In this document: one piece after another, positions 4,753 through 23,423 of the stretch
Layout: every line of letters begins with the position of its first letter
How positions within the stretch are numbered: the first letter of the stretch is position 1
Assembly: GCA_020058765.1 (NCBI GenBank)
Contig: JAGVDM010000004.1
Coordinates: 248,001 to 312,000, forward strand
Direction: 5' to 3'
Source: Candidatus Peribacterales bacterium
Lineage (GTDB): Bacteria; Patescibacteriota; Gracilibacteria; Peribacterales; Peribacteraceae
DNA length: 64,000 bases
Made by a program: the position numbers and the translations under genes
The notes under the pieces: model-generated
Databases searched by the model: none
Told to the model about the DNA's origin: nothing
What the model saw: only the letters and a program-made list of their open reading frames with translations

Positions 4753-6129
4753 TTGATTACCTATAGTCGTGCTGTGCCGCTCACGAAAGACATCATTGAT
4801 CGCACGTTGCGCACAGCGCACGGCGAGCAGGCGTATCGGCTCGTGGAAACACTCACCGATGCAGGGCACGACGCATGGTGGGTGGGTGGCTGTGTGCGCG
4901 ACATGCTGCTTGGCAGCATTCCCAAAGATATCGACATTGCCACATCTGCATTACCAACTGAGCTCACTGCACTCTTCAAAAAGACAGATGACAGTTCCGC
5001 TGCTCTGGGTGCAGTACTCGTGTCCATCGAGGGGCACGTGTTCGAAGTCACCACATTCCGCGAAGACGATACCGCTTCGGATGGGCGACACCCGGAATCT
5101 GTGCGCTTTGGGGATCGCCGGCACGATGCAGCCCGGCGCGACTTTACGGTGAATGCCATGTACTGGCACCCGATCTCTCAAGAGCTCTACGACCCCTACG
5201 ATGGAGAAAAAGATCTCCGCGAGCGCTTGATCCGTTTTATTGGTGAACCAAAAACACGCATTGAGCACGATGCACTTCGCCTACTCCGTGCTGTGCGGTT
5301 CCGTGCAGCAATCGATGGGCAATATCACCCAGATACTTTTACAGCACTGCATGATCGCGCAGCAGACATTGCTGTGCTTTCGGGAACGCGCAGATTCCGC
5401 GAGCTCGAGAAAATATTGCTCGGCCCACACCCAGATATTGCCTTTGAGGATTTGTGGGAAACCGATGTGATCGAAGCACTCATACCAGAGCTGCATGCAT
5501 GCAAAGGCGTGGCACAGCCTACCGTTCCTCACGGCAAAAACGACGTGTGGACGCACACCATGCGCGCCATTGCGAGCTTTACAGAAGACCACGGTGCCGA
5601 CGTGCGCTGGGCAACGCTCTTCCACGATATCGGCAAGCCAAAAACATTCTCCATCGAAGAGGATCGCATTCACTTTAATGAGCACGCATCGGTGGGTGCA
5701 GATATGGCGCGCTCCATCTTGGATCGCCTGCAATGCCCGGCGAAACGGCGCGACAAGATTGCCTGGATTGTGGATCACCACATGATGATGGGGACATTCA
5801 AAGAATTGGACGTAGAGCGAAAAGGGTATTGGTACTACCACCCATGGTTCCTGGAACTTTTGCAGCTCTTCTGGCTCGATATTGCTGGCACGCATGAGCA
5901 GCGCTTCGGCTTCTACGAAGAAATCATTGCCGACTACAATGCATTCCTGGATGCACACCCGCTGCCACCCAAACCAATCCTGGATGGCAATGACGTGATG
6001 GCAATCCTTGGCATTCAGCCAGGGCACGAGCTCGGCAAAGTACTCAAAGAACTCTACAGCGCACAAGTGTCGGGTGACATTACCACGCGCGCAGAAGCGG
6101 AAATCTTCCTACGCAAACGGTTTGCTTGA
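4753..6129 (+). CDS. cca: CCA tRNA nucleotidyltransferase / poly(A) polymerase with HD domain
   Basis: WWVGGCVRDMLLGSIPKDIDIATSA, RRDFTVNAMYW, LFHDIGKP HD motif; TTG/GTG start. Confidence 0.9.
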   Translation: MITYSRAVPLTKDIIDRTLRTAHGEQAYRLVETLTDAGHDAWWVGGCVRDMLLGSIPKDIDIATSALPTELTALFKKTDDSSAALGAVLVSIEGHVFEVTTFREDDTASDGRHPESVRFGDRRHDAARRDFTVNAMYWHPISQELYDPYDGEKDLRERLIRFIGEPKTRIEHDALRLLRAVRFRAAIDGQYHPDTFTALHDRAADIAVLSGTRRFRELEKILLGPHPDIAFEDLWETDVIEALIPELHACKGVAQPTVPHGKNDVWTHTMRAIASFTEDHGADVRWATLFHDIGKPKTFSIEEDRIHFNEHASVGADMARSILDRLQCPAKRRDKIAWIVDHHMMMGTFKELDVERKGYWYYHPWFLELLQLFWLDIAGTHEQRFGFYEEIIADYNAFLDAHPLPPKPILDGNDVMAILGIQPGHELGKVLKELYSAQVSGDITTRAEAEIFLRKRFA

Positions 6130-7596
6130 TCAACGTTTCGGCAGTTCAAGAAGCACGCCATCGCCACCCGAGGAGGAGCGGTTCCAATCGGTGAGGTACC
6201 CGTACCCACGCATTCGTACTTGTGCCGGCTTTACGGTTGCGGGCAGGTCGATATCGAACACATGGCCGACATCTGGGCGATACACCAGCGTGCCGCGCCC
6301 GGTGTAGAGCACTTTGCCCTGATCATCGAGGAGCGTGAACGTGTTGCAGTTCACAGCGGCTTCGATCCAGAAGGTTGTAGGTGTATCGATCGGGTTGGAT
6401 GCTTTGGCACGCACAGATACCGCGCCCTTCTCTGCATTGTAGGTGGCTGCCGCAATCTGCGAGCTCGTGTTCACCGCAGTACCATCGAGCGGGAGATCGT
6501 AGTCCTTTGGCTGCGCCAGGAGCGCGCCATGCAGCAGAACGGCACGCCGATGCTTTTCGGACTCTGGCACAAAACGTTCCTCGGAATGCGGGGAACAGTA
6601 GTCTGCCGTGGACTTGGTGAGCTCTGGCTTACCGAGTTTCTCCACTCCTTCCCCTGTGGGCCACTGGAACTTCGTCATTTCAATGACGACGTGATAGTGC
6701 CCATGCATGTTCACCGCCTCGGCACCCTTGAGTGTTGCCATCGCAATCTGTGGATCACAGAAAACGCGCAATACTGGAATACCATCCTCACCGGCTTCTT
6801 CCTCTACACAGAGGAACCGGCCGGTTTTGTCCGCAAAGACATTCCGGCGACGATCGTCGTGTGGTCGTAGCGCAATGCTGTCTGGCCCCTCGGCTGCCGC
6901 AGGATACGCCTGGAGCCCCCGACAAATTTGCTGCAGCACTTCGGCATAGCTGTTGTTCTTGGTTTCCATGTTGAGCTGCTGCAATCGCTGGTGATCTGGC
7001 ACATCGGAAAGCGACACGCTGATGCCCGACTGCGCGCGCAACTGCGCAAGCGCATGATCTGCTTTCGAATTTGGCAGAAGTGCAATGCGCGTGGGCGCAT
7101 CTGCAGATTCGTACTCCATAAGCGAGTTTGCATACCGCAAACGGGAAACCTGCTCTACGGAGTGCACATCTTTCTTCGGCGTAATGATTTGCAGAATTGC
7201 CGCATCCACTTCTGGCGGTCGTGGATTCATAAACTTCACAAGCTCCAGAAGCGACGCTTGAATACTCTTCTGCGCCCGTTCGCGTGTCGCGAATGCGTCA
7301 TCATCCAGTGCAGGGATTTCTGCTTTCAGTTTTTGGAGCAGAACCGGGAGCTGGTCGCGCTTCCACACTTCCACGGGATCATGTGTATGTACCTGTTGCA
7401 GGGCATCTTTCCCCGAATCATTTGAAGTTGCAGCAGGAGGGAACGCGGATTCCTGTGCGCGGCTCTCTGAGGGCTGCACGACGGCAGAACCCATCGCCAG
7501 CGCCGCCCACGCAGTGATGTGGCCCACAGCGGCAGCAATACCTGGTGACCGAGGGGCAGAACCAAAAGACTCGCGAAGGGAAGATGGAATGTTCAT
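6130..7596 (-). CDS. Hypothetical secreted protein
   Basis: MNIPSSLRES...ITAWAALAMGSAVVQPSESRAQ signal-peptide-like N-terminus; about 488 aa. Confidence 0.65.
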   Translation of the reverse strand: MNIPSSLRESFGSAPRSPGIAAAVGHITAWAALAMGSAVVQPSESRAQESAFPPAATSNDSGKDALQQVHTHDPVEVWKRDQLPVLLQKLKAEIPALDDDAFATRERAQKSIQASLLELVKFMNPRPPEVDAAILQIITPKKDVHSVEQVSRLRYANSLMEYESADAPTRIALLPNSKADHALAQLRAQSGISVSLSDVPDHQRLQQLNMETKNNSYAEVLQQICRGLQAYPAAAEGPDSIALRPHDDRRRNVFADKTGRFLCVEEEAGEDGIPVLRVFCDPQIAMATLKGAEAVNMHGHYHVVIEMTKFQWPTGEGVEKLGKPELTKSTADYCSPHSEERFVPESEKHRRAVLLHGALLAQPKDYDLPLDGTAVNTSSQIAAATYNAEKGAVSVRAKASNPIDTPTTFWIEAAVNCNTFTLLDDQGKVLYTGRGTLVYRPDVGHVFDIDLPATVKPAQVRMRGYGYLTDWNRSSSGGDGVLLELPKR

Positions 7597-7661
7597 AGCT
7601 TCGGATCGTACACCTGTGGTTTCACCCACCGGGAAGATTTTCTGCGACGTTCTGCGCCAAC

Positions 7662-7689
7662 GAAAAAAATGCCGCTCTGTGAGCGGCAT
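7662..7689 (-). terminator. Rho-independent terminator for the membrane-protein gene at 7721-8071
   Basis: Minus strand ATGCCGCTC-ACA-GAGCGGCAT followed by a T7 run. Confidence 0.85.
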
Positions 7690-7720
7690 TCCAGTAACCT
7701 GCGAAGTCCTACTCACTCAT

Positions 7721-8071
7721 TTACACCTTGCTCTTGCTCCCAAAGCCCACAATCAAACACAGGAATGCGATGCCAACGTACAGACCGATTTCTGTGGTGT
7801 TTACTGCAAAGAAGCCAAACACATTGCCATTCATGACCAGTGCGGCTACTGCAGCAACAGCAAACAGGATACCCGTGAGAATGAGCAGCATCCGCGCACG
7901 GCCATACGTGCCCGCAGCTGCAAAGAGCAGCACACCCAAAACGATATGGAGAATATTCTGCGTGGTATCAAAGCTCAATCCGGCGAAGGAAGACATAGCG
8001 AAGCCAACAATGCCGAGCACAAGAAGCGCAATGCCTCCAACGCGGGCAAGGAGTTTTACGAACATCGTCAT
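7721..8071 (-). CDS. Small four-TM membrane protein (DUF4383-like)
   Basis: MTMFVKLLARVGGIALLVLGIVGF...NILHIVLGVLLFAAA with several TM segments. Confidence 0.65.
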   Translation of the reverse strand: MTMFVKLLARVGGIALLVLGIVGFAMSSFAGLSFDTTQNILHIVLGVLLFAAAGTYGRARMLLILTGILFAVAAVAALVMNGNVFGFFAVNTTEIGLYVGIAFLCLIVGFGSKSKV

Positions 8072-8126
8072 AAGAGGAAAGGGGAACAGTTGCCCCGCAC
8101 TGTAGCACAACTCACAGTGCAACAGA

Positions 8127-8150
8127 AAAGAGCGGCACATGCCGCTCTTT
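8127..8150 (-). terminator. Rho-independent terminator for the SIMPL gene
   Basis: aaagagcggc-acat-gccgctcttt, T-run in the minus direction. Confidence 0.75.
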
Positions 8151-8171
8151 GGACTGCGATAGAAGTGATAA

Positions 8172-8930
8172 CTACCGAAGCTGATAGCTCAAGTACACGC
8201 GCACGGTAATTTCCTGCTCACCTGTAGGCAGCGCAGCGGCTTCGCTCACCGCCATGTCTCCACCCATGCCGTAGCCCCCTCTGCCGTACACATCACCGGG
8301 GTAGCTCGTGGCATCTTCGCCATAGCTAATCAGTTTGCCCACCCTCATACCAAGTTCCGACGCAAGCAGCTCTGCCTGCGCACGCGCCTTCCCAATAGAT
8401 TCGCGGCGTGCTTCGTCTTTTACCTTCTCCAGATCTTCCAGTGTGAACTGCACACCAGAAACATTGTTTGCCCCAGCAGCAGTAGCCGCTGCAATCACAT
8501 CACCTGCCATTTCTGGAGTGCGCACTTTGATCGTGACGTTCTGACTTGCCTCAAAGCCACGGGCGATCTGCTCACCGTCGACCCAATCGTAGGCAGGGTA
8601 GAGCGTGAAGTTGCTCGTCTGCACATCTTTTCCTTCCACGCCAAGCTCGCCTACAGCAGCGAGCACTTCCTTCATGGTTGCCTCCAGTAACGTTGTAGTC
8701 TGCTCCGCCGTTGGCTGTCTGCCAGTCTGCACACCCAGAGTAACGAGTGCGAGATCTGGCTGCACTGCCACCTTGGTTTCGCCCTGTGCGCTCACGCTCG
8801 GCGCGCTATAGGGGCGAGATTCCACATACTTCCCCGCAAGGAAGAAGAGCCCTGCAAGGAGGGTGGTGGGCAGAGCGATCGTAAAGAAGATCTGCGTAAG
8901 TGTGGCATTCTGTTTTGCTGCGGCAGCCAT
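8172..8930 (-). CDS. SIMPL (DUF541) domain periplasmic-type protein
   Basis: VSAQGETKVAVQPDLALVTLGVQT, AARRESIGKARAQAELLASELGMRVGKLISYGE; start set at MAAAAKQNATLT. Confidence 0.85.
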   Translation of the reverse strand: MAAAAKQNATLTQIFFTIALPTTLLAGLFFLAGKYVESRPYSAPSVSAQGETKVAVQPDLALVTLGVQTGRQPTAEQTTTLLEATMKEVLAAVGELGVEGKDVQTSNFTLYPAYDWVDGEQIARGFEASQNVTIKVRTPEMAGDVIAAATAAGANNVSGVQFTLEDLEKVKDEARRESIGKARAQAELLASELGMRVGKLISYGEDATSYPGDVYGRGGYGMGGDMAVSEAAALPTGEQEITVRVYLSYQLR

Positions 8931-9087
8931 AGTGCAAGAGGGGAATAAAAGAAGCAGTACTACTCCAAAGCGGCAGTATGCCATACCGTCTACGAAATGT
9001 GGAGACAATGGTTACAGCTCCACACGCAAGTGGGGCCGCTGTCGTGTGACAGCAGCCCCGTGTTTGATCAGCGTGCGACGCTACTTG

Positions 9088-9678
9088 CTAGCGGTAATAC
9101 TGTTTCCAGTGAGGGAGACCCCACTGAATTTCTGCCCGCATAACGTACAAGTAGGAAAGTTGGCACAATGCCGCGATCCAGACAGGAACGAGATTCCACC
9201 ACCAGGCGGGGTGGATGTTCCACGGATGCGTTTGGTATTCTTCATACCCCAACACATTGAGCAGCATATATGCAAAAAGTTCTCGGAATCGCTTCCCGAA
9301 AGAATCGGGGATGGAGATCACTCCGAGATGGTACGTCGAGAGGTACCACAGCAGAGCAAAAGCGAAAACAACGCAAGCAATGGCGATGAGCGGCCCGCGG
9401 AACTCAAACATCCGAGGGTGACGACTCAAGGCACTCATGCCAGCCAAGATGCCCAGGCACGGGAGCCACCAACCGAAGAAAATCGGTTTGAGGCCGATGT
9501 GCAGGGCAAGAACAATCATCCAGAACCACAGCACCCAACCCCAGAAGAGGCAAAAACCAGTGACCTCATGCAGGTTGTGAGCGAGCTGCTTGCGAGAAGC
9601 AAGCATCTCCTTTTCGCTGGGGGGACGAGCACCGTAGCCGCACTTCAGGCACAGCAAAAAATTGGCGAACCAGGACAT
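9088..9678 (-). CDS. Hypothetical polytopic membrane protein
   Basis: MSWFANFLLCLKCGYGARPPSEKE... with an AGGAG RBS; several TM segments. Confidence 0.65.
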   Translation of the reverse strand: MSWFANFLLCLKCGYGARPPSEKEMLASRKQLAHNLHEVTGFCLFWGWVLWFWMIVLALHIGLKPIFFGWWLPCLGILAGMSALSRHPRMFEFRGPLIAIACVVFAFALLWYLSTYHLGVISIPDSFGKRFRELFAYMLLNVLGYEEYQTHPWNIHPAWWWNLVPVWIAALCQLSYLYVMRAEIQWGLPHWKQYYR

Positions 9679-9732
9679 AGCAACTCTCCTAACATGTGAA
9701 TGAGCGTCAGCCACACGGCTGATCTAAATTAC

Positions 9733-9760
9733 ATTGTAAACTATTATTGTATTGTGTCAA
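9733..9760 (-). promoter_or_regulatory. Sigma-70-like promoter for the gene at 9088-9678
   Basis: Minus strand TTGACA-N16-TACAAT. Confidence 0.6.
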
Positions 9761-9901
9761 TGTATGGTTCAGCCCTTCCAGAAGAGGAGAAATCGAATTT
9801 CTGCATGCATGTTCTATAGACTACACGATAGCGTATGCGCCCCCGAGAATTGCAGAAACTCAGTGCGCGCGGCGAAAAAAGTGGCATACTCGTTTACCAG
9901 T

Positions 9902-10627
9902 ATGTGGAATTGGAACAAGAAACAACCGGCAACTACGCTCCACGAGCAGATCCTCGCAGGGAACGTAGGTTGCCTGTTTGCCAAAGAAGCCGCAGAACGC
10001 GGCGAGATTGCCTACGCCACAGTGGATGCCGGGCACAACAGTAACGAAGAAGGCGTGCAGAACGCGCTGCAAGGCTACATAGATGATGATCGCAAGCGTG
10101 TGCTCATGCTACTTTCGTCCCATGAACCCATGCACTTCGAAAAGGGGAGGGGACAGGCACTGCAGATCTACGAGCATATGGTGCTCGCACTCAGAACTAT
10201 CAATCAGCACGCGCTCATCAAAGCACTGGAGATCAACGAAGATCTCAACATCTTTGCAGCGCACCAAGTGATACCGGCACTCAACCTTTTGCCGAGAGAG
10301 CTACAAACACTCATGCGCGATCCTGTTACACGCGATCGGCTTTGCGACACCTACGCAGCAAACGGCGCGCTCTCACAAAAGTTTGTAGATTCGCAGACGG
10401 GCGAAGTGCGCCGGCTCTTTAGCTTTGCGATGGCACCGTACTATGAACCAGTAACTAATATGCCCCACCCCCGCTGGGCGCCGCACTTCTGCGTTGCAGT
10501 TACAGAGCAGCGGGACATTAATACCGCGATTAAAGAGCGCCCATTGGATGTAACCCGCACGCAGCAATGGGAAGTGGCTGCGGCGGGGCAACGGTATCCG
10601 CAGGGGTTTCATCCGAGAGCGAAATAA
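9902..10627 (+). CDS. Hypothetical protein
   Basis: ORF MWNWNKKQPATTLHEQILAGNVGCLFAKEAAERGEIAYATVDAGHNS... Confidence 0.6.
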   Translation: MWNWNKKQPATTLHEQILAGNVGCLFAKEAAERGEIAYATVDAGHNSNEEGVQNALQGYIDDDRKRVLMLLSSHEPMHFEKGRGQALQIYEHMVLALRTINQHALIKALEINEDLNIFAAHQVIPALNLLPRELQTLMRDPVTRDRLCDTYAANGALSQKFVDSQTGEVRRLFSFAMAPYYEPVTNMPHPRWAPHFCVAVTEQRDINTAIKERPLDVTRTQQWEVAAAGQRYPQGFHPRAK

Positions 10628-10805
10628 AAAGCTTGCGACCGATGTGCTGGGAATTTCGGATAAGCAGAAAGCTCAGAAGATCAACCAGAGGAAGTACGTA
10701 GAGTATCTCCTAAGAAATGGATCTATCTCTGAAAAACGAGAACTGCTGGATTCGCTAAAAGATAAATTGGTGCTCCAAGGTCAGAAGATATTTCTGGAAA
10801 CCTGA
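10626..10805 (+). pseudogene. C-terminal remnant of a probable site-specific serine recombinase
   Basis: Start-less frame KKLATDVLGISDKQKAQKINQRKYVEYLLRNGSISEKRELLDSLKDKLVLQGQKIFLET* resembles C-termini of CPR serine recombinases (..EKRELL..LK.KLVL....I.LE); absent from the ORF track. Confidence 0.55.
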
Positions 10806-10811
10806 ATGCCG

Positions 10812-12287
10812 TCACGCTAGCAAAAAACTAGGTGCGTATCCCGGCTGCTGATCTTCCATTATTTGGATCTCGCTGCAAACTGCATTCAACTGATGGCCAA
10901 GGAAACAGGCTCCACTCATGGGGCCGCAATAAAAAATATACAAACGCTTCGCCTTCCTCTTTTTTACTAATGCAACAAGCGAGCTTTTTACATCTTCTGC
11001 CATTGAAACAAGATCGCCTGCGTTGCGGATGCACTTCTGGGCGATACCAGTTTTTGGAGCTAGTAAAAGAAGGCTGCCGATATCCTCATGTGCGTTAACG
11101 AACTCACGGACATCATTTGATATATCGTGCGTTAGACTAATGCCGACTGCGACTGCACTGCCATTCTTAGCAGCGTTCTCACCTTCGGTAGTGCCGCCCT
11201 CACTGACGATACTCATTGAAAAATCGTCGTTACGCCTCGCATCGGTTCTCCAGAGCTGGCCGTATTGATCCATTTCTATTACGTACGGACCCACCTTGCG
11301 GAAGGTATGGCCGAACGCCATCCATGCACTCAGTCTGGCGGCACCGCGAGCACGAATGAGTCTTTCACTAGCAGAGCGGCTGACTTGTTTTTCCATGCTC
11401 TTGAGTTCCGGGAGCAGCACGGCATTCCAATTATTTGGCTCTTTGAGCTGGCGGCCCCCGTCATTAAAATGATCTTTCCAATCCAAGAGGTAGTCTGGAG
11501 GGACGCTGAACACTTGATCTTTGATCGTATTCATATGAATGGTCAAAGAGGGCTCTTCCGACGGTGGTAATTTTAAATCATGTTCTGACAATTTTGCATC
11601 AAGGGTGGTTAATGTGATTTCTGCTACAGCTCCTGTGATCCATTCCTTCACAATGCCAATGACTGTGAAAAGGTCGGTATCGCTATATTTTAATCCGTGA
11701 TTTTGCATTCGTTCCGATATGCGCTCCTTTAACTCTTTTGGCACTCTGCCGAGTCGGAAATGCAGAGTCTGAAGAAACGAAACAAATTCCGATTCGTCGC
11801 TTGCGCCAATATGATCCTGCCATTTCTTCCGCAGATCTGCGTACATGGCATTCGTGCCCGATATGAAATCAAGCCGAAGGGTTTCGTGATCGGGATCAAT
11901 GATGGCTTCTGATTCGTTATTCCATCCGGTATTGCTTACGAGATACAGTTCAATCTTCCCTTGATGCTTTGAGCGAAGAAGCAGCCATGTGTTCCAGAAT
12001 TTTTGGAGAAGGCTTTTGGTAGTTTTTGTCTTACAGCGACAAAGCTCTTCAGTTGAGTAAACGGTATCTGGCGATGTGTGGAATTTGACCTGATAGAACC
12101 GAGACGGCAATTCCACATCTGACGTATGTGGAAAGACGGTCACATCGTCGACGGAACCTGCTTTGTCGTCTTCTACACAGATATGGTGCACATTGTCTGG
12201 ATGTTGCATAAGCTCCAAAGTCAAAAACCAAGATTGGAGATGCTGATAATCAAGCCCGTTGAGTATTGACGTTGTCTTCTTAGGCAT
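10812..12287 (-). CDS. cap4: CBASS effector Cap4-like: DUF4297-like PD-(D/E)xK/QxK nuclease fused to SAVED domain
   Basis: N-terminal VEDDKAGSVDDVTVF...RFYQVKFH (D...QxK nuclease core); C-terminal AKRLYIFYCGPMSGACFLGHQLNAV...GYAPSFLL SAVED-like; last gene of the CBASS operon; ATGCCTAA overlap with cap6. Confidence 0.82.
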   Translation of the reverse strand: MPKKTTSILNGLDYQHLQSWFLTLELMQHPDNVHHICVEDDKAGSVDDVTVFPHTSDVELPSRFYQVKFHTSPDTVYSTEELCRCKTKTTKSLLQKFWNTWLLLRSKHQGKIELYLVSNTGWNNESEAIIDPDHETLRLDFISGTNAMYADLRKKWQDHIGASDESEFVSFLQTLHFRLGRVPKELKERISERMQNHGLKYSDTDLFTVIGIVKEWITGAVAEITLTTLDAKLSEHDLKLPPSEEPSLTIHMNTIKDQVFSVPPDYLLDWKDHFNDGGRQLKEPNNWNAVLLPELKSMEKQVSRSASERLIRARGAARLSAWMAFGHTFRKVGPYVIEMDQYGQLWRTDARRNDDFSMSIVSEGGTTEGENAAKNGSAVAVGISLTHDISNDVREFVNAHEDIGSLLLLAPKTGIAQKCIRNAGDLVSMAEDVKSSLVALVKKRKAKRLYIFYCGPMSGACFLGHQLNAVCSEIQIMEDQQPGYAPSFLLA

Positions 12288-13233
12288 TGGATTTCTCATT
12301 GGTAAAAGGCTTGGCTGGCTCGAAGGCTTGAGCGAGTTCTACGATGCGATCAAAAGTAATTGCCGTGTCGGGGAAGGCATCGATAACAAGGCTAGGGAAG
12401 AAACGGAGTCGCATATCAGAGTACGTCCAGCCGTAGGTGCGATCTTTCGTAGAGCCCATGAGATCGGCAATTTTCTCGATTTGGGCCGCTTTCAATCCAA
12501 TGCCATCGAGATTTTGCTTAATAACTTCTTTCCTCTGCTCTTTACTAGGCCTCTTGAACTGAAAAATGGCGGCGGCTCGCCGGACGACTGCTGGATCCAG
12601 GGAGTCAAACCTGTTCGTGCACATGACAATAATGACGGGCAGCCCCTGCTTCGACAACGTATCAATGCCACGGATCAATGAGTTTACTCCCGCCTTGTCT
12701 TCATGATGCATCTGTTGGAATTCCCTGGACTGCGCGAGTGCATCGGCCTCATCAATGAAGAAAATGATTCCCGAAGAGGGTCGTCCCGCATTGATCTTAA
12801 TTTCCGAAGCCGTCTTTCGTATTTCCTCGAAAGCGTTACTGATGAGCTTGCTCATCTGACCAACGAGGCCGCTCCCGCGCGCGTTCAGGCTCAACCGGTA
12901 GAGATTGATGGACATATTCTTCTCTCTGTCGGAGATGGCTGCGCCGAAGGTCTCTGCAAGAGTCGTTTTCCCCGTTCCCACATCCCCAGCAAAAATGAAT
13001 AGAGGTGCTCTCTTCTTAAAAAAATCAACCAAAGGGATGACTCGCTTATGATTTTGCTTGCTCCAGTCATCCAACAAGGATCGATTTAGGAGAACGGAAG
13101 ATTCTTTGACCAGCTGCGATTTCTCCTCATCTAGACCAACAAGGCCTTGATACACAATCAGAGCCTCCGCATTGGGGAAGCTATCAACGGCCTCGAATAC
13201 ATTTTCTTCATCATCCATAGTGTTAGGTGGCAT
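12280..13233 (-). CDS. cap6: TRIP13/Pch2-like AAA+ ATPase, CBASS Cap6
   Basis: Walker A GDVGTGKTTLAE, Walker B IIFFIDEADAL, directly downstream of the HORMA gene; ATG overlaps the HORMA stop. Confidence 0.88.
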   Translation of the reverse strand: MPPNTMDDEENVFEAVDSFPNAEALIVYQGLVGLDEEKSQLVKESSVLLNRSLLDDWSKQNHKRVIPLVDFFKKRAPLFIFAGDVGTGKTTLAETFGAAISDREKNMSINLYRLSLNARGSGLVGQMSKLISNAFEEIRKTASEIKINAGRPSSGIIFFIDEADALAQSREFQQMHHEDKAGVNSLIRGIDTLSKQGLPVIIVMCTNRFDSLDPAVVRRAAAIFQFKRPSKEQRKEVIKQNLDGIGLKAAQIEKIADLMGSTKDRTYGWTYSDMRLRFFPSLVIDAFPDTAITFDRIVELAQAFEPAKPFTNEKSNA

Positions 13234-13732
13234 TGAATACAGTACGCGATACCCCTGTTCCATTCTTGGCATATTGCCGGTCAGCGGAGGAGACGCCGTT
13301 TGCTGCCAAAGGCGGTTCATCTGCTCCGTTCCGCTTCACGGGCAGCTTAGCGTCGAAAGCCGCCTGCTGCTCTGTTGTAAGGGCAAAATAATTGGAGTTG
13401 GGGCTGAGGTAGGAATAGGCAGTCGCGCCCTCGAGGTTCATTCCTGCGCGGATGTCGCCACACTCATCGTCCCGGGAGACGGAGCCATCCCAATGGACTT
13501 CATAGCGGAGCCGGAAAATCACTATGCCGTTCCTCTTAAATCCATAGTCCAGCGATCGCAGATACCCGTTGGCGATAAGCTCCACAGCTTCTGTGATGTG
13601 ATCCCTGACGTACTGCTCGGATGTTTTCTTGTAGAGAAAGTAAAGCAGCCACAAATCTCCCGCAATTTTTGAGCCCAAATACTCCGCGTCGGTTCGCGAT
13701 GCCGTTGCTGAGCGAGTGAGTGACTGAGTCAT
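13223..13732 (-). CDS. cap7: Bacterial HORMA-domain protein, CBASS Cap7
   Basis: MTQSLTRSATASRTDAEYLGSKIAGDLWLLYFLYKKTSEQYV...GYLRSLDYGFKRNGIVIFRLRYEV...TGVSRTVFNAT resembles bacterial HORMA1; ATGA overlap with the CD-NTase. Confidence 0.87.
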   Translation of the reverse strand: MTQSLTRSATASRTDAEYLGSKIAGDLWLLYFLYKKTSEQYVRDHITEAVELIANGYLRSLDYGFKRNGIVIFRLRYEVHWDGSVSRDDECGDIRAGMNLEGATAYSYLSPNSNYFALTTEQQAAFDAKLPVKRNGADEPPLAANGVSSADRQYAKNGTGVSRTVFNAT

Positions 13733-14745
13733 AGCGAAATGAAGAAGGATGGACCGAACACCAATCGCCAAAGCTCCTGCGCCCTACCTTTTGTGGCCGT
13801 CGTCATGGCACCAGAAATTGCAGTCAGTGCCTTTGTCGCTTCGGCAACGATCATCTGCCGTTCCGATTCGGTGTATCGCGATGCAACGTTATTTTCTGGG
13901 TTCACCGGGTCGAAGATGCGAATCGGATCGACACAATTCTTGGGCAAGGACGAAGAAGAATAATTGTCGGCGAAGACGATGGGTTCCTTCAGCCCAGAAT
14001 TCACGATGTATGCAAAGAAATCGCCCATGGCCTTGGGGTAATCATCGAGTTCAATCTTTGCAGTGTCGGCGAGATGGGCGCAGATCAGCTCGATCATGAA
14101 CGACTTAAAGCGGAAAGATGAGTCGCGATCTCTGACCTGTTTCTTCCACCACTTTGCAAGCCTCACCACTTGGGCGAAGTGATCAGAGTTCTCCTTTTTC
14201 CTCTTCCGGATGAAATCCAGATGCAGAGGGATGCTGGTCATAACGCGTACGCCCATGTCTTTGGGGATGAGGTAACCCACGCCATCATCCTCTCCTTCAA
14301 AAATGACAGGAACGACATCGACGTTCAATCCCGTACCGACAAACGAAATGGTGACACAGTGTGAGCCAGGAGGAAGGCTGAACTGCTCAGGTTTGAGTTG
14401 GGGGTAGGCCTCTTGCAGGCGTTCCTTAAGCCATACGAGCAGTTTATCAACGTCGATGTTTTTGTCTGTGGGCTTCACATAGACCGCAACATCCATATCG
14501 TCGATTGTGCGGAGGGCGGTGCCCTTTGCGACGCTGCCCGCGTGGAGCATTTTTACGAGACTGTAGTCGGGGTGATCACCGATGTATCTTTCGAGCTGAT
14601 CTCGGAGGTTGTTGACCTGTCCGCGATATTTCTCCGCCAGTTCATGGGGTAGGTTCACCTTATCCGTGGCAAAGGCAAGGATCTGGCTGTGTTTTACGTG
14701 TTGCTCAAGCATTTCAAAATCGGAGGGGAGCTTCAAGCCTAACAA
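13729..14745 (-). CDS. CD-NTase (cGAS/DncV-like nucleotidyltransferase), CBASS signal synthase
   Basis: MLHAGSVAKGTALRTIDDMDVAVYV (GS..DxD) and LNVDVVPVI third acidic residue; TTG start at 14745 or ATG at 14712. Confidence 0.9.
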   Translation of the reverse strand: MLGLKLPSDFEMLEQHVKHSQILAFATDKVNLPHELAEKYRGQVNNLRDQLERYIGDHPDYSLVKMLHAGSVAKGTALRTIDDMDVAVYVKPTDKNIDVDKLLVWLKERLQEAYPQLKPEQFSLPPGSHCVTISFVGTGLNVDVVPVIFEGEDDGVGYLIPKDMGVRVMTSIPLHLDFIRKRKKENSDHFAQVVRLAKWWKKQVRDRDSSFRFKSFMIELICAHLADTAKIELDDYPKAMGDFFAYIVNSGLKEPIVFADNYSSSSLPKNCVDPIRIFDPVNPENNVASRYTESERQMIVAEATKALTAISGAMTTATKGRAQELWRLVFGPSFFISL

Positions 14746-14770
14746 GTATTCTTTATCAGGTCAATTGTTC

Positions 14771-14799
14771 TTGTTTTTCTGTCGTTTATGCCGTAAAAT
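14771..14799 (+). promoter_or_regulatory. Predicted promoter of the LexA-like gene
   Basis: TTGTTT-N17-TAAAAT, predicted TSS about 14806, immediately before the ATG at 14808. Confidence 0.5.
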
Positions 14800-14807
14800 C
14801 GATAGGC

Positions 14808-15425
14808 ATGCGTCCAATTCACCCTCTCCAGCAAAAACTTTTGAACGAATTGAGGAGACTGTCCGGGACGGATGAAGGATACACATACCGCGATCTTATG
14901 AAGCGGATATGCGCGTCCTCAACGAGTCAGGTTGCGCATCATCTTTACCAACTCGAACAGAAAGGACTACTAAAGCGTGATCCCGATGATCCCCAGAATT
15001 TCACGATCATTGACGAGGCTGAGGACGCATTTTCATTCCTACCTCTCCTTGCGCTCGCTTCATGTGGAAAGGGTATTGATAACGAACAACATATTATTGA
15101 GAGAATCCCCGTGCGGTCTTCTTTCATTCCGACGCAGATCAAAGACACTTTTCTAATTCTTGCCGATGGTGATTCGATGAAACCGCGAATAAATCACAAG
15201 GATATTGTTCTCGTCGAAAAATTCTCAGAGGATAAACATAACCCTCTCGGTAAAGTTGTCGTATGTGAAGAAAATTCCGAATGTAAAATAAAGCAGTATT
15301 CTAAATCAGATGGAGATATCGTTCTTGTGTCTTTTAATGAAAAATATCCTCCATACGTCGTGAAGAATCCAGATAGCTTCAAAATACATGGCATTGTGAG
15401 AGGTGTTCTTTTTGCAAGCATTTAA
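14808..15425 (+). CDS. LexA/UmuD-like S24 self-cleaving repressor with winged-helix N-terminus
   Basis: LexA-like wHTH (HPLQQKLLNELRR...SSTSQVAHHLYQLEQKGLLKRDPDDPQ), putative C|G cleavage site ASCGKG, catalytic DGDSMKP Ser with Lys about 37-39 residues downstream (ECKIKQY). Confidence 0.88.
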   Translation: MRPIHPLQQKLLNELRRLSGTDEGYTYRDLMKRICASSTSQVAHHLYQLEQKGLLKRDPDDPQNFTIIDEAEDAFSFLPLLALASCGKGIDNEQHIIERIPVRSSFIPTQIKDTFLILADGDSMKPRINHKDIVLVEKFSEDKHNPLGKVVVCEENSECKIKQYSKSDGDIVLVSFNEKYPPYVVKNPDSFKIHGIVRGVLFASI

Positions 15426-15450
15426 TTCCAAGCCTAAAAAGGCATCTCTG

Positions 15451-18117
15451 TTAAAGAAAGGTATTTTGTAGTGCGCCAAAACTCATATTTACCTTAATAG
15501 CTGTATGAGGAATTAATACATACTTCCATTCCTTCCCCTTATGGCTCCTATTGTAGTCGGACGCAGCCTTGCAAAATTCTTTTGCCGCCTCTGCTTTTTC
15601 CAATACATCCTTCTCTTCAATATCTTTTTCTGCCTTAACCTCGATCATATAAATACAATTATCCGTTTCCACAACAAAATCCGGTTCGTATCGTTTTGAA
15701 TTGTGATTCCAGTAGATTCGAAACTGTGAATGGGCAGGCCTCAGCCATTTTAGTACATCCGTGTCCGCCTCTAGCGTTGCGGCCAAGTCCTTTTCCGCTT
15801 TTGAATCAAATTTATACAGATTGTGGCATGCTTTTTTGAAGCCGCCGAATACTTTGGATGGAATTGAATTTGTAGGCTGAATTGTTTCTGAGTAATGGTG
15901 GACTTTATCTTTCGTATATATCGACAAATTGTGTGGCTCGATTTTTGTAAATGCGTGAATGACCGGCTCCTCAAAACCAGATTGTTCCAAATAAAAATTC
16001 TTCTTAAGCTGAACATAGATAAATTTTGCTATTTCACGCTTGTGATACAGCACGATATTACGCAATTCATCGTCAGCACGGTCTGCGCCAAGCTTATTGA
16101 CTGCCTGCGTAGCGAGCTTGTACAAAAGGTCATTTACTTGGTCATAATCAACATCCGGGTAATTGATAAGCTCATTCACCAAAATATTTACCGGAATGTC
16201 TCGCACCATGCCCCCACCTTCGCTTTGTAGAATATCAAACTCATTTGTCCTGAGCGTGGTTCGTAGAATTTCCTCTGAAACAGGTTGATAATTCAGGTTT
16301 GTGACATCCAGATCAAAATCATGAAAGCCTGCGGCAACCTCATGGCTTTGCTGAATAAGAATACGAGGAATAGGAATGATCTTTTGGATCACTTCCTGCA
16401 CTACTTCCTCATATTCCTTTTTGGCAGCTTCAATGATCTCACTTTTAAATAAGCTTTGCTGAGGAGCACGTTCAACCCGTTCAATAAGTTTTTCGAATAC
16501 CACCTTCTTCACCTCCGCTGAATTGAGGTCATTGATATTGGTAATTGAATCTCCAAGATTCGAAACAGTATCAAACAGTGCCTGCTTGGCTTGCACATTA
16601 ATATTCGCCTCTTGCTTCTTATCTGCATCCTGCAACGCATCTACCGCAGCGCGCTCTTCGCGCAAGACTTCATCATACGTTGAATTTGATGTGATAATAG
16701 ATTGTGCTTCAGGCAGGAAATCGGGGTCTATTTCAATAATATTCTCCTTTCTGATTATGGAATCGGGATTATTCGCCGCCTCCACAATAGATTGAAAGCG
16801 GTCATGGGCAATAATAGTCAGTGTGTCTGGCTTCTTCTCCCCAGTGCGTTTACCAAAGGGCAAGCGAAGACCGCGCCCAAGCGTCTGCTCCGTGAGGATC
16901 TGTGAATTTGCGGCTCGTAGAGGGATAATTGTATACAGATTTGTGACATCCCAACCCTCTTTTAGCATGTTTACATGGATGACAATCTCGATTGTATTCT
17001 CGGGCTTCTCTAGCTGCATAAGCTTTTGCACATTTTCCTCTTTCTCACCTCCTCGCTGATTGGAGTGAATTTCCATCACTTTTCCTTTGTACCTTCCGTC
17101 AAAAAAGCGATCCGATTCAATCATGTCCTTAATTTCCTGCGCATGCGTAGTGTCTTTGGCGACGACAAGCACAAACGGCTTCACCAGCTTGTTGCCTGTA
17201 TCTCGGGCATAAATATCAAGGGCGACCTTTGTATCTTCATGAATGCGAATTCCGTCTTCCAATTTAATGAGATCTAACTCCTTTGGATCGTTCTTATATT
17301 GATCCGGATTAAGATTTCGGCGAGTCGCAACGGCAGGCTCTTTCAAGAAGCCATCGCGTAATCCATGCGCAAGAGAGTATTCGTATACGACATTCCTGAA
17401 CTTGGCTCCCCGATTATCAATTGGCGTCGCAGTGAGCTCCAAGCCTAATACTGCCTTTAGTTCATTGATGGCTTTCATACCCGCATCTGCGCGGTAGTGA
17501 TGTGACTCATCCATGAGAACCACCAAATCATCCAATGAGGAGAGATAGCTGAAATATGACTCACCAAGGTATTCGGACAGCCTTTTTATGCGCGGCTCTT
17601 TGCCTCCGCGCATTTCGGAGCTGATACGCTGAATATTAAAAACATTGATCTTTACAGACTCGGCAAACAGGGTCACCTGTCTCGCTTCCGAATAGTTGTC
17701 GCTAGTGATAATACGGGGAGGATTCTGAGCGAATTCACTGATTCCGTTAAAAACGTATTTCGGGTTATTTGGATCCGAGAAATCTTCCACAAGCTTATTA
17801 TAGATAGTTGTACCGGGTGCAAGTACAAAGAAGTTCTGGATGCCTTTTTCTATGTACAGATAGGCGATAAATGCACCCATAAGACGGGTTTTCCCTACAC
17901 CTGTGGCGAGTGCAAAGGTAAGAGAAGGAAAATCACGCTCAAAATCCGAACAGGTTGGATACAGTGCATGCACCTTTTTAAGTGCCTCCGTCAGATCAAC
18001 TCCATTCTGTAGTTCAAGTTCATCCGCAAGCTTAGCAAGTATTTCCAAACTCGTTTTCTGCGGTGGGCGCAGGCTTAGCCGATTGGTAATTGTTTGAGCA
18101 GTTTTATTCATCGTCAT
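15451..18117 (-). CDS. Type III restriction enzyme Res subunit (DEAD/DEAH helicase-nuclease)
   Basis: FALATGVGKTRLMGAFIA, VVLMDESHHYRADA, C-terminal nuclease core YEPDFVVETDNCIYMIEVKAE. Confidence 0.93.
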   Translation of the reverse strand: MTMNKTAQTITNRLSLRPPQKTSLEILAKLADELELQNGVDLTEALKKVHALYPTCSDFERDFPSLTFALATGVGKTRLMGAFIAYLYIEKGIQNFFVLAPGTTIYNKLVEDFSDPNNPKYVFNGISEFAQNPPRIITSDNYSEARQVTLFAESVKINVFNIQRISSEMRGGKEPRIKRLSEYLGESYFSYLSSLDDLVVLMDESHHYRADAGMKAINELKAVLGLELTATPIDNRGAKFRNVVYEYSLAHGLRDGFLKEPAVATRRNLNPDQYKNDPKELDLIKLEDGIRIHEDTKVALDIYARDTGNKLVKPFVLVVAKDTTHAQEIKDMIESDRFFDGRYKGKVMEIHSNQRGGEKEENVQKLMQLEKPENTIEIVIHVNMLKEGWDVTNLYTIIPLRAANSQILTEQTLGRGLRLPFGKRTGEKKPDTLTIIAHDRFQSIVEAANNPDSIIRKENIIEIDPDFLPEAQSIITSNSTYDEVLREERAAVDALQDADKKQEANINVQAKQALFDTVSNLGDSITNINDLNSAEVKKVVFEKLIERVERAPQQSLFKSEIIEAAKKEYEEVVQEVIQKIIPIPRILIQQSHEVAAGFHDFDLDVTNLNYQPVSEEILRTTLRTNEFDILQSEGGGMVRDIPVNILVNELINYPDVDYDQVNDLLYKLATQAVNKLGADRADDELRNIVLYHKREIAKFIYVQLKKNFYLEQSGFEEPVIHAFTKIEPHNLSIYTKDKVHHYSETIQPTNSIPSKVFGGFKKACHNLYKFDSKAEKDLAATLEADTDVLKWLRPAHSQFRIYWNHNSKRYEPDFVVETDNCIYMIEVKAEKDIEEKDVLEKAEAAKEFCKAASDYNRSHKGKEWKYVLIPHTAIKVNMSFGALQNTFL

Positions 18118-19732
18118 TGGAGGTATCGTCTTGATCCTCGGCTATCTCTTCCGTGGACTCAATAATATTTAAATTGTAGTTGTCCTGCCCATATTCACAT
18201 TTCCCTAAAATCATCTGTGGAATCTTTTTTACAGTGATGTTGGGGTAACGGTCATCACACTCCGGTGCAAATGACTTAGCACAAATCAGTAGGCTTTCCT
18301 CGCTACTCATTTCCTCATGAATCTTATCGAGTTGTTCAACTGTGACAAAGGCCGTAGTGGTGAAAATATAGTCTGTTTCCGTTGATTTACCTTGCTTCCA
18401 GTACAATTCCTCATGTGGTGAAAACCGGAATCCCTCATGCTTGCACATGGCAGCAGCCAACATATTGGCATTGTATTTTTCATCGATGACCCAATTATCG
18501 TACTTATCTTTACGCAAGAGACTTGAAGCAAGATTGTAGAATTTGAATCCACCTCCCCCTTCCCATTTCAGGCTTTCAGAAAGTGGTAACCCATCAGTAC
18601 CATCGACTACTCTTTTAAGTCTTGGTAAGCAGTGAGTATTAGCATGTTCGCCTAGTTCAACTCCTATCCATTTTCTGCCCATTTTATGGGCTACGGCAGC
18701 AGCTGTGCCTGATCCGAGAAAAGAATCTAGCACAATATCACCCTTTGCGGTCGCAAGCTCAATGATTCGCTTTATTAACCGTTCGGGTTTTGGAGTAGCA
18801 AACACGTCGCTTGAATTCACTTTAATCACTTCTTTTTTAGATTCATCATTATGCCCGACCTCATTGTGCATCAGCAAAGTAGAAGCCTTTCTTCCTTGTT
18901 GAACCTCGGTAAGAAATTGTTTTACTGATGGGATTGCTTTTCCATTTTTTCCAAAAACAACTCGATTATCTCTTATCAATTCGATCATTTTTGCTTGAGC
19001 AACTGCCCAATGTTTTCCTGGAGGGGCATCAAATTTGTCACCATGTGGCCCTGTAACTATATAATGTCCATTTTTACGTTCTTCATTTGCAATTAAGTCA
19101 CCAGGTTTCCATGGACCTCTGGGGTCATTGTCGGGATTCTTATATCTACTATTCATTTCAGGAGTTCTTTCTAATAGATTGAAATCTAACTTTTGTTCAT
19201 TCTTGGCATAAGAAAGAATATATTCATGATCAACTGATATCCTCTTAGATTGATTCTTTGGGCTATATACTTTTTGCCATACTAAGGTACAGATATGATT
19301 TTTTCGTCCAAATATTTCATCGCACAGCACTCTTAAATATGGCATTTCATTGTCATCAATAGAAATAAAGATTGTACCGTCTTCGCTCAATAAATTAAGA
19401 AGAGTTTGTAATCTTGGCTTCATTAGATTGAGCCATATTGAGTGCTCAACACCGTCATCATAGTGCTCAAAAGCACTCCCCGTATTGTAGGGAGGATCAA
19501 TATAAATACATTTCACTTTTCCTGCATAATCCTGCTCCAAAGCTTTCAATGCCAAAAGGTTATCTCCATGAATGAGCATGTTTTCTGAATTTGGATCTCC
19601 ATAGGACTTCTCCGGATCTTCAATTAGGATTCTTGGTTCCAGTTTTAGCTCCTCATCTTTGCCTATCCATGTAAGCTCAAGACGCTGTTTCTTTGGCTTT
19701 CCTTTGCCATTGTTGTTATAGACTGCATTCAT
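18104..19732 (-). CDS. Type III DNA adenine methyltransferase Mod subunit
   Basis: DPPYNTGSAFEHYDD (motif IV) N-terminal and DSFLGSGTAAAVAHKMGRKWIGVELGEH (motif I) C-terminal: beta-class order. Confidence 0.93.
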   Translation of the reverse strand: MNAVYNNNGKGKPKKQRLELTWIGKDEELKLEPRILIEDPEKSYGDPNSENMLIHGDNLLALKALEQDYAGKVKCIYIDPPYNTGSAFEHYDDGVEHSIWLNLMKPRLQTLLNLLSEDGTIFISIDDNEMPYLRVLCDEIFGRKNHICTLVWQKVYSPKNQSKRISVDHEYILSYAKNEQKLDFNLLERTPEMNSRYKNPDNDPRGPWKPGDLIANEERKNGHYIVTGPHGDKFDAPPGKHWAVAQAKMIELIRDNRVVFGKNGKAIPSVKQFLTEVQQGRKASTLLMHNEVGHNDESKKEVIKVNSSDVFATPKPERLIKRIIELATAKGDIVLDSFLGSGTAAAVAHKMGRKWIGVELGEHANTHCLPRLKRVVDGTDGLPLSESLKWEGGGGFKFYNLASSLLRKDKYDNWVIDEKYNANMLAAAMCKHEGFRFSPHEELYWKQGKSTETDYIFTTTAFVTVEQLDKIHEEMSSEESLLICAKSFAPECDDRYPNITVKKIPQMILGKCEYGQDNYNLNIIESTEEIAEDQDDTSNDDE

Positions 19733-19735
19733 ACA

Positions 19736-20206
19736 TCAAGACCAGTTAAAAAGTTTCAGTCTGTTTCTTGGAACAGTATAGTTTAATGATTCACCTCTGC
19801 ATTTTACATGCAATCGAGTGTTCTTTTCCCAAGAAACAATCACAGCAGTAGGAGTGGTTTCAAATAGCAGACGCATGGCATCAATGTCTTCCCATTCCAA
19901 TGTACATATTTCTCTGTTTGCACACACCAAACAAATCAACAAATTCTTATGGGATTCAATTCTTCTCAAACGGAGAATGTCAGACTTTGAAAAAGTAAAA
20001 ACGGAGTACTCTATGCCCTTTCTTCCTTTTCGGACATTTGATGTAGATTTTACAAATACTTTATGGGTTATGTCTTTAACAAAAATTTCGTACGCACTCC
20101 ATTCAATGTCAGTATTTTTGTCCAGCAGTTTCAGGCTTATCTGCGGGCTTCGAATGATTTGAGAGAGAACAACACCGTGATAAAGTTCAAATTTAGAAAT
20201 AGGCAT
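19736..20206 (-). CDS. Small protein of unknown function in the SNF2-Mod-Res cassette
   Basis: 156 aa, MPISKFELYHGVVLSQIIRSPQISLKLLD...; tightly packed between SNF2 and mod. Confidence 0.75.
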   Translation of the reverse strand: MPISKFELYHGVVLSQIIRSPQISLKLLDKNTDIEWSAYEIFVKDITHKVFVKSTSNVRKGRKGIEYSVFTFSKSDILRLRRIESHKNLLICLVCANREICTLEWEDIDAMRLLFETTPTAVIVSWEKNTRLHVKCRGESLNYTVPRNRLKLFNWS

Positions 20207-20218
20207 ACAGTGGCAAAA

Positions 20219-23161: not shown

Positions 23162-23346
23162 TGAAAACAAAGATTGAGAAGCACAACGAAAGGGTATCAG
23201 GTTTTACCCTTATCTCTAAGTCAATATTGGTATCTAGGTGCTTCTAGCGCACTCCAGACTCGGATCTGGACTTACTGCTTTTCCGTGCTCTGAAGCCACC
23301 ACGGTCGCGTGCACATGTTGGCTGGCCAAAAGAGATTCGAATTTTT

Positions 23347-23423
23347 TGGTGCGCCAGGGTGGAGTTGAACCACCGACCGCCGGTGTATAAGTCCGGAGCT
23401 CTAACCAACTGAGCTACTGGCGC
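23347..23423 (-). tRNA. tRNA-Ile (anticodon TAT)
   Basis: GCGCCAG TA GCTCAGTTGGTTAGAGC T CCGGA CTTATAC ACCGG CGGTC GGTGGTTCAACTCCACC CTGGCGC A CCA; cloverleaf with encoded CCA; 31:39 A.A mismatch. Confidence 0.92.

Follow-up and report, generated by a model that had tools for sequence, protein, structure and literature searches.

In type III cyclic oligonucleotide-based antiphage signalling systems (CBASS), a HORMA protein senses a peptide and activates the cyclase CdnC, TRIP13 resets the switch, and a SAVED domain binds the cyclic product, whereupon the nuclease of the effector is turned on. The window analysed here, a stretch of 64,000 nucleotides from Candidatus Peribacterales bacterium (contig JAGVDM010000004.1, positions 248,001 to 312,000), carries an operon of this kind together with a divergent gene for a LexA-like S24 protein, and the locus is probably a complete, horizontally acquired type III CBASS of a bacterium of the candidate phyla radiation (CPR), held under a dedicated LexA-like repressor. 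The operon shares with the type III CBASS of Escherichia coli MS115-1 (CdnC-HORMA-TRIP13-NucC) the cyclase family, the HORMA and TRIP13 types and the order of the first three genes, whereas it has a Cap4-type SAVED nuclease in place of NucC as effector and a CPR bacterium as host. As well, related plasmids carry a regulator pair of a helix-turn-helix (HTH) protein and ImmA, in contrast to the LexA-like S24 protein of the window. The operon itself is a known type in an uncommon host, and the S24 linkage is what is new.

Three DNA-damage regulators of CBASS and other immune operons have been described, namely CapW/BrxR, CapH+CapP and CapK+CapS, the last of which was named in 2026 and is often located between a restriction-modification (R-M) system and an immune operon (PMC13373217, PMC9122588). 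For CapK+CapS, cutting of phage DNA by R-M was proposed as the source of the damage (PMC13373217). Like the S24 gene of the window, all three are encoded upstream of an immune operon, which they control on DNA damage. However, CapH is cut by a separate peptidase, CapW binds single-stranded DNA (ssDNA) and CapS is phosphorylated, whereas the window encodes one LexA-type protein predicted to carry its own serine-lysine protease; the arrangement that marks CapH+CapP, an HTH gene with a separate ImmA metallopeptidase gene beside CBASS, was not found in the window. The recurrence of LexA-like S24 genes beside CBASS suggests a previously undescribed DNA-damage switch. No description of an S24 or LexA-like regulator of CBASS was found in the literature covered, subscription papers and preprints lying outside that coverage, so the novelty is unproven.

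The type III CBASS operon and its host

Four consecutive, overlapping and intact open reading frames (ORFs) on the minus strand, from 14745 to 10812, encode CdnC, HORMA, TRIP13 and a Cap4-type effector, and all family tests run support their reading as a type III CBASS operon that is intact. The order of the four genes is the one given in a preliminary description made from the sequence alone.

13729-14745, minus strand: CdnC-type CD-NTase (cGAS/DncV-like nucleotidyltransferase), predicted cyclic oligonucleotide synthase, with a GSV...DDMD...D core
13223-13732, minus strand: bacterial HORMA protein (Cap7-type), whose ATGA start overlaps the cyclase stop
12280-13233, minus strand: TRIP13-like AAA+ remodeller (Cap6-type), with Walker A GDVGTGKTT and Walker B FFIDEAD
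10812-12299, minus strand: Cap4-type effector, restriction-like nuclease plus SAVED sensor, starting at the ATG at 12299 or 12287

CdnC may start at the TTG at 14745 or, more likely, at the ATG at 14712, while TRIP13 probably starts at 13233 or 13218 and not at the first ATG of the listed ORF (13320), because the family match begins at EENVFEAVD. The cyclase reaches 386.7 bits against NCBIfam CBASS_cyclase_a (cut-off 200) and matches the solved CdnC of E. coli MS115-1 (PDB 6p80; phmmer, 2.2e-89); it holds the GS..DxD..D nucleotidyltransferase core, in which residues G59, S60, D72, D74 and D132 are unchanged across eight relatives. The HORMA protein matches Pfam bacHORMA_1 (4.8e-38; 131 bits, cut-off 35.6) as well as the solved HORMA protein of MS115-1 (PDB 6u7b/6p8v; 6e-17), and the third protein matches PADLOC TRIP13 (2.7e-112) and solved Pch2/TRIP13 proteins (PDB 6pb3, 2.2e-84; 6p8v, 2.7e-74).

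The effector matches Pfam SAVED (8.5e-24; 84.8 bits, cut-off 26.2), PADLOC SAVED3--SAVED_PDDEXK over its full length (1.5e-66) and a solved Cap4 structure (7e-12), and the nuclease-domain residues E39, D47, D48, Q66 and K68 are unchanged across nine effectors. The Pfam Cap4_nuclease model aligned at the right place but below its cut-off (17.1 versus 26.2 bits), and the NCBI Cap4 equivalog NF051438 was missed as well (43.3 versus 160 bits); therefore, the effector is named Cap4-type and is not assigned to that equivalog. A search of the genome for PF18134 (AGS_C) gave no match, and a single-protein cyclase scan of genome contigs returned nothing, an alignment query being needed. The operon as given in the preliminary description was borne out by these tests, including its GS..DMD..D nucleotidyltransferase, a bacterial HORMA protein at 13223-13732, a TRIP13-like AAA+ protein with Walker motifs, a Cap4-like effector with SAVED at 10812-12287 and D/QxK residues, an undisrupted CD-NTase and the assignment to type III.

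The genome that holds the window is 1.17 Mb in 10 contigs and 99.3% complete. In cyclases of some members of its class, the glycine of the GSY motif is encoded by TGA, as in genetic code 25, a code known only from CPR lineages of the Gracilibacteria/Absconditabacteria type; genes of the window itself use TGA as stop. Because of the code-25 classmates, the genome size and the group labels, the host is well supported as a Gracilibacteria-type CPR bacterium from a standard-code family of that class, in agreement with the host proposed beforehand.

LexA-like S24 genes on the promoter side of CBASS operons

Two further features adjoin the operon, of which the gene, like the island borders described below, was not listed in the finding of the preliminary description.

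14808-15425, plus strand: predicted LexA-like S24 autoprotease repressor, with a winged HTH (wHTH) and an S24 domain, divergent from cdnC
14713-14807, intergenic: putative control region of 95 bp, with AATTGTTCTTG, which also occurs upstream of the sister S24 gene of genome G405

The product of 14808-15425 matches Pfam S24 (4.1e-19; 68.8 bits, cut-off 23.3) and LexA_DNA_bind (5.7e-7; 29.7 bits, cut-off 23.7), and its best match among solved proteins in PDB is LexA (3.9e-9). Its AlphaFold (AF2) model has a predicted local distance difference test (pLDDT) score of 84.8, with low confidence in the predicted cleavage loop (residues 84-89); it matches LexA at 1.5e-13, and all 43 matches at E<=0.001 are LexA, UmuD or lambda-type repressors. 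With these S24 autoproteases it shares the wHTH and S24 domains, the Ser-Lys dyad, the X-Gly site and the LexA fold, the predicted cleavage site being Cys86-Gly87 and the predicted catalytic dyad Ser123/Lys162; Gly87, Ser123 and Lys162 are unchanged in 15 S24 sequences. Unlike LexA, it has a Cys-Gly site as in UmuD and misses the NCBIfam lexA equivalog cut-off (89.4 versus 110.95 bits), and for this reason it is called LexA-like and not filed as LexA. It is also distinct from the LexA of the host, which has an SAG site and is encoded on another contig (C1) beside a dinB-like gene, with a perfect 10-bp dyad upstream. The candidate role of the window's S24 protein as the only LexA of the host was rejected, as another S24 gene stands beside the dinB-like gene on C1.

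In the phylum, CBASS operons repeatedly have an S24 gene on their promoter side. Among 42 same-phylum CD-NTase loci, 15 have an S24 gene upstream of the CBASS operon, at most ~1.6 kb from the cyclase, and none (0/42) has one downstream within the stretches examined, although these and the following counts treat as independent loci that are only partly so, since there is overlap between the class and phylum draws and kinship among some of the loci. The other 14 linked cyclases of this set were all confirmed by PADLOC, and the partners tested are one- or two-transmembrane (1TM, 2TM) effectors or Cap4 with E1-E2 (type II, L181); linked S24 genes occur with CBASS types I, II and III. In two other CPR type III loci, of Gottesmanbacteria (L035) and BroJett025 (L041), S24 is the first gene and overlaps cdnC, while apparent S24 overlaps in L183 and L185 result from over-long ORF starts.

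In windows of equal width, S24 genes were found at 9/27 CD-NTase loci versus 0/30 HsdM loci (Fisher p=5e-4). For type III loci, the linkage holds for 3/5 in CPR versus 1/76 in others (p=5e-4); among 77 non-CPR type III relatives, S24 was found only at L052, in a 4.9-Mb genome, and an ImmA gene at 27. Neither the window nor any of the 42 same-phylum loci gave a match to the one ImmA query used. In a tree, the CBASS-linked S24 proteins are separate from the LexA proteins of the same genomes (6 changes versus a shuffled mean of 11.7, with 0/500 shuffles as low), and the closest relative of the window's S24 is the CBASS-linked S24 of G405 (support 100/100). The 11-mer AATTGTTCTTG is common to the window and G405, and such sharing was reached in 3 of 300 shuffles. 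Moreover, dyads with arms of at least 7 bp are present upstream of 9/18 linked S24 genes versus 1.7 expected, the window being without one.

Proposed control of the operon and alternative readings

The linkage, the modelled fold and the conserved residues suggest that the S24 protein would act as a transcriptional lock on the operon. It would bind the 95-bp divergent region and hold both its own gene and the operon low. DNA damage or RecA-ssDNA, caused by phage attack or by cuts that the neighbouring R-M system makes in phage DNA, would trigger self-cleavage at Cys86-Gly87, and transcription would be released. HORMA would then close on a phage peptide and turn on CdnC, the cyclic trinucleotide made by CdnC would be bound by SAVED, Cap4 would degrade double-stranded DNA and the infected cell would die, while TRIP13 would re-open HORMA and reset the switch. 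Although their genomes are very small, some CPR bacteria, a group that makes up a large share of bacterial diversity, keep a suicidal defence that needs tight control. If the proposal is true, a self-cleaving LexA-like repressor tied to CBASS would be a one-gene solution of this control, and phage- or restriction-induced DNA damage would be linked directly to cell suicide. The prediction names the protein, the operator region and the expected cleavage site, and is cheap to test in a laboratory host.

Besides the partial dependence of the loci, several observations weigh against a dedicated S24 repressor. No strong operator dyad stands out in 14713-14807, and no sigma-70 consensus promoter was found there. 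Two type III CBASS of the phylum, in G579 (L029) and G337 (L062), are without an adjacent S24 gene, and an S24 gene of the same clade (L227) leads an R-M operon and not a CBASS operon. The linked S24 proteins of L166, L170 and L173 are close to ordinary LexA, and no other full-length S24 gene was found in the genomes G051, G274, G405 and G123, so that there the linked gene may double as the host LexA.

An alternative, which we consider unlikely though deserving of attention, is that the CBASS is real and the S24 protein represses the mobile element or prophage that carries it, in the manner of cI-like excision control. The island is element-derived and holds a recombinase remnant, the S24 gene of G123 (L157) adjoins terminase genes, and the CBASS of G579 and G621 are near recombinase and terminase genes, all of which agree with such a role. 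Against this reading, the S24 gene stands without exception at the promoter end of CBASS, and in L035 and L041 it is the first gene and overlaps cdnC. Its linkage is found with type I, II and III operons and also where phage genes are absent.

It is more doubtful still that the S24 protein is a C-protein-like controller of the neighbouring R-M system with CBASS merely nearby. The idea draws on loci in which S24 is followed by a C5 methylase gene (L033, L170), is fused to an adenine methylase (L158) or heads an R-M operon (G337). In the window, however, S24 and the R-M genes are convergent and would have separate promoters, whereas the CBASS operon diverges from S24; furthermore, the same R-M module in a related element of genome G260 has no S24 gene within the stretch examined, and none of the 30 HsdM loci had one. 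Finally, that the operon of this reduced genome is a relic, degraded and without function, as the truncated adjacent recombinase might hint, is very improbable, because its four overlapping ORFs are intact and the catalytic residues are kept despite 21-61% identity to relatives.

As a separate matter, one ORF of G237 (L158:3680-5449) combines LexA DNA-binding, S24 and D12 adenine DNA methyltransferase domains and adjoins a 1TM-CD-NTase CBASS operon. C5 DNA methylase genes follow S24 genes not only in L033 and L170 but also in L279:3647-4357, and the R-M operon headed by S24 in G337 contains a Vsr-like gene; LexA-like control may reach R-M systems in CPR.

The island at the tRNA-Ile gene and relatives of the operon

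The type III CBASS operon is cargo on a horizontally acquired, low-GC island of ~14 kb at a tRNA-Ile gene. The GC content of the island is 45.4% versus 55.2% in the flanks, and relatives keep the neighbourhood of CCA-adding enzyme, SIMPL, tRNA-Ile and CDP-alcohol transferase genes, in which the spacing from SIMPL to tRNA-Ile is ~1.2 kb in G597 and ~14.3 kb in the window. In keeping with tRNA-associated islands, it abuts the tRNA 3' end, is near-empty in a relative and has deviant GC, the integrase being present only as a remnant. The remaining features of the island are as follows.

10644-10805, plus strand: remnant encoding the C-terminal end of a serine recombinase, with 78% identity to the corresponding part of the G260 recombinase
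15451-18117, minus strand: type III restriction subunit (res), PADLOC REase_III 9.9e-185
18104-19732, minus strand: type III adenine methyltransferase (mod), PADLOC MTase_III 7.6e-191
20219-23170, minus strand: SNF2-family helicase of the same R-M module, Pfam SNF2-rel_dom 5.7e-33
23293-23341: element end with a tRNA 3'-end remnant, matching the tRNA-Gln end of the G260 element (86% over 49 bp)
23347-23423, minus strand: tRNA-Ile(TAT), right island border, in the conserved CCA-gene/SIMPL/tRNA-Ile neighbourhood

The G260 element, from another genus, is inserted at a tRNA-Gln gene; it encodes a recombinase, and its Cap4-CD-NTase CBASS differs from that of the window. Its R-M module is closely shared with the window, with res 97% identical in protein and 89% in DNA and the SNF2 helicase 93% and 85%, respectively, and the tRNA remnant at 23293-23341 sits close to the tRNA-Ile 3' end. 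From these sequences, the two read as versions of a single mobile defence element whose CBASS cassette was exchanged. The version in the window is apparently immobilised, and no intact recombinase ORF was found there beside the remnant at 10644-10805. A shared element of this kind illustrates how such systems can pass from one CPR genus to another. The gap between the CCA-adding enzyme and tRNA-Ile genes (6129-23347 in the window) ranges from ~1 to 17 kb within the family and has the look of a hotspot for integration. The ORFs at 9088-9714 (minus strand) and 9752-10627 (plus strand), located at the left island end, have no counterpart in the relatives examined.

The preliminary description had called ultra-small, probably episymbiotic bacteria not well known for cyclic-nucleotide abortive defence; in this phylum, the HORMA/TRIP13 type is rare, whereas CBASS in general is not unusual. 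An SMODS cyclase is present in 25/380 genomes of the phylum and bacHORMA_1 in 2/380, namely the window's own and G337, and thus CBASS is a normal if minor defence in the phylum, while type III is rare. In the class of BroJett025, CdnC was over the cut-off in 2 of 281 genomes. The CD-NTase genes of L175 and L182, from classmates of the window's genome, have many in-frame TGA codons on conserved glycines (code 25), so that standard-code searches will miss or split them. According to a groundwater survey, each CPR genome holds fewer defence systems than genomes of other lineages, yet at a higher density (PMC12259885).

A CdnC and TRIP13 tree built on 86 loci joins the window to G579, a genome from the same family (Shimodaira-Hasegawa-like approximate likelihood ratio test, SH-aLRT, 99), with Gottesmanbacteria L035 and a Flavobacterium near, whereas L062 (G337, same phylum) is placed in a different part; these separate positions point to at least two acquisitions in the phylum. 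The sister operon in G579 has the same four genes, with the cyclase 61% and the effector 46% identical. Unlike the window, it has no adjacent S24 gene and is located between an intact serine recombinase gene and phage terminase genes. This operon (L029), which is also flanked by methylase genes, may be carried by a prophage. The same four-gene set is found in Chloroflexota and Nitrospinota, as well as on a contig assigned to a Nitrosopumilaceae archaeon (L040), which carries the same CdnC-HORMA-TRIP13-Cap4 operon.

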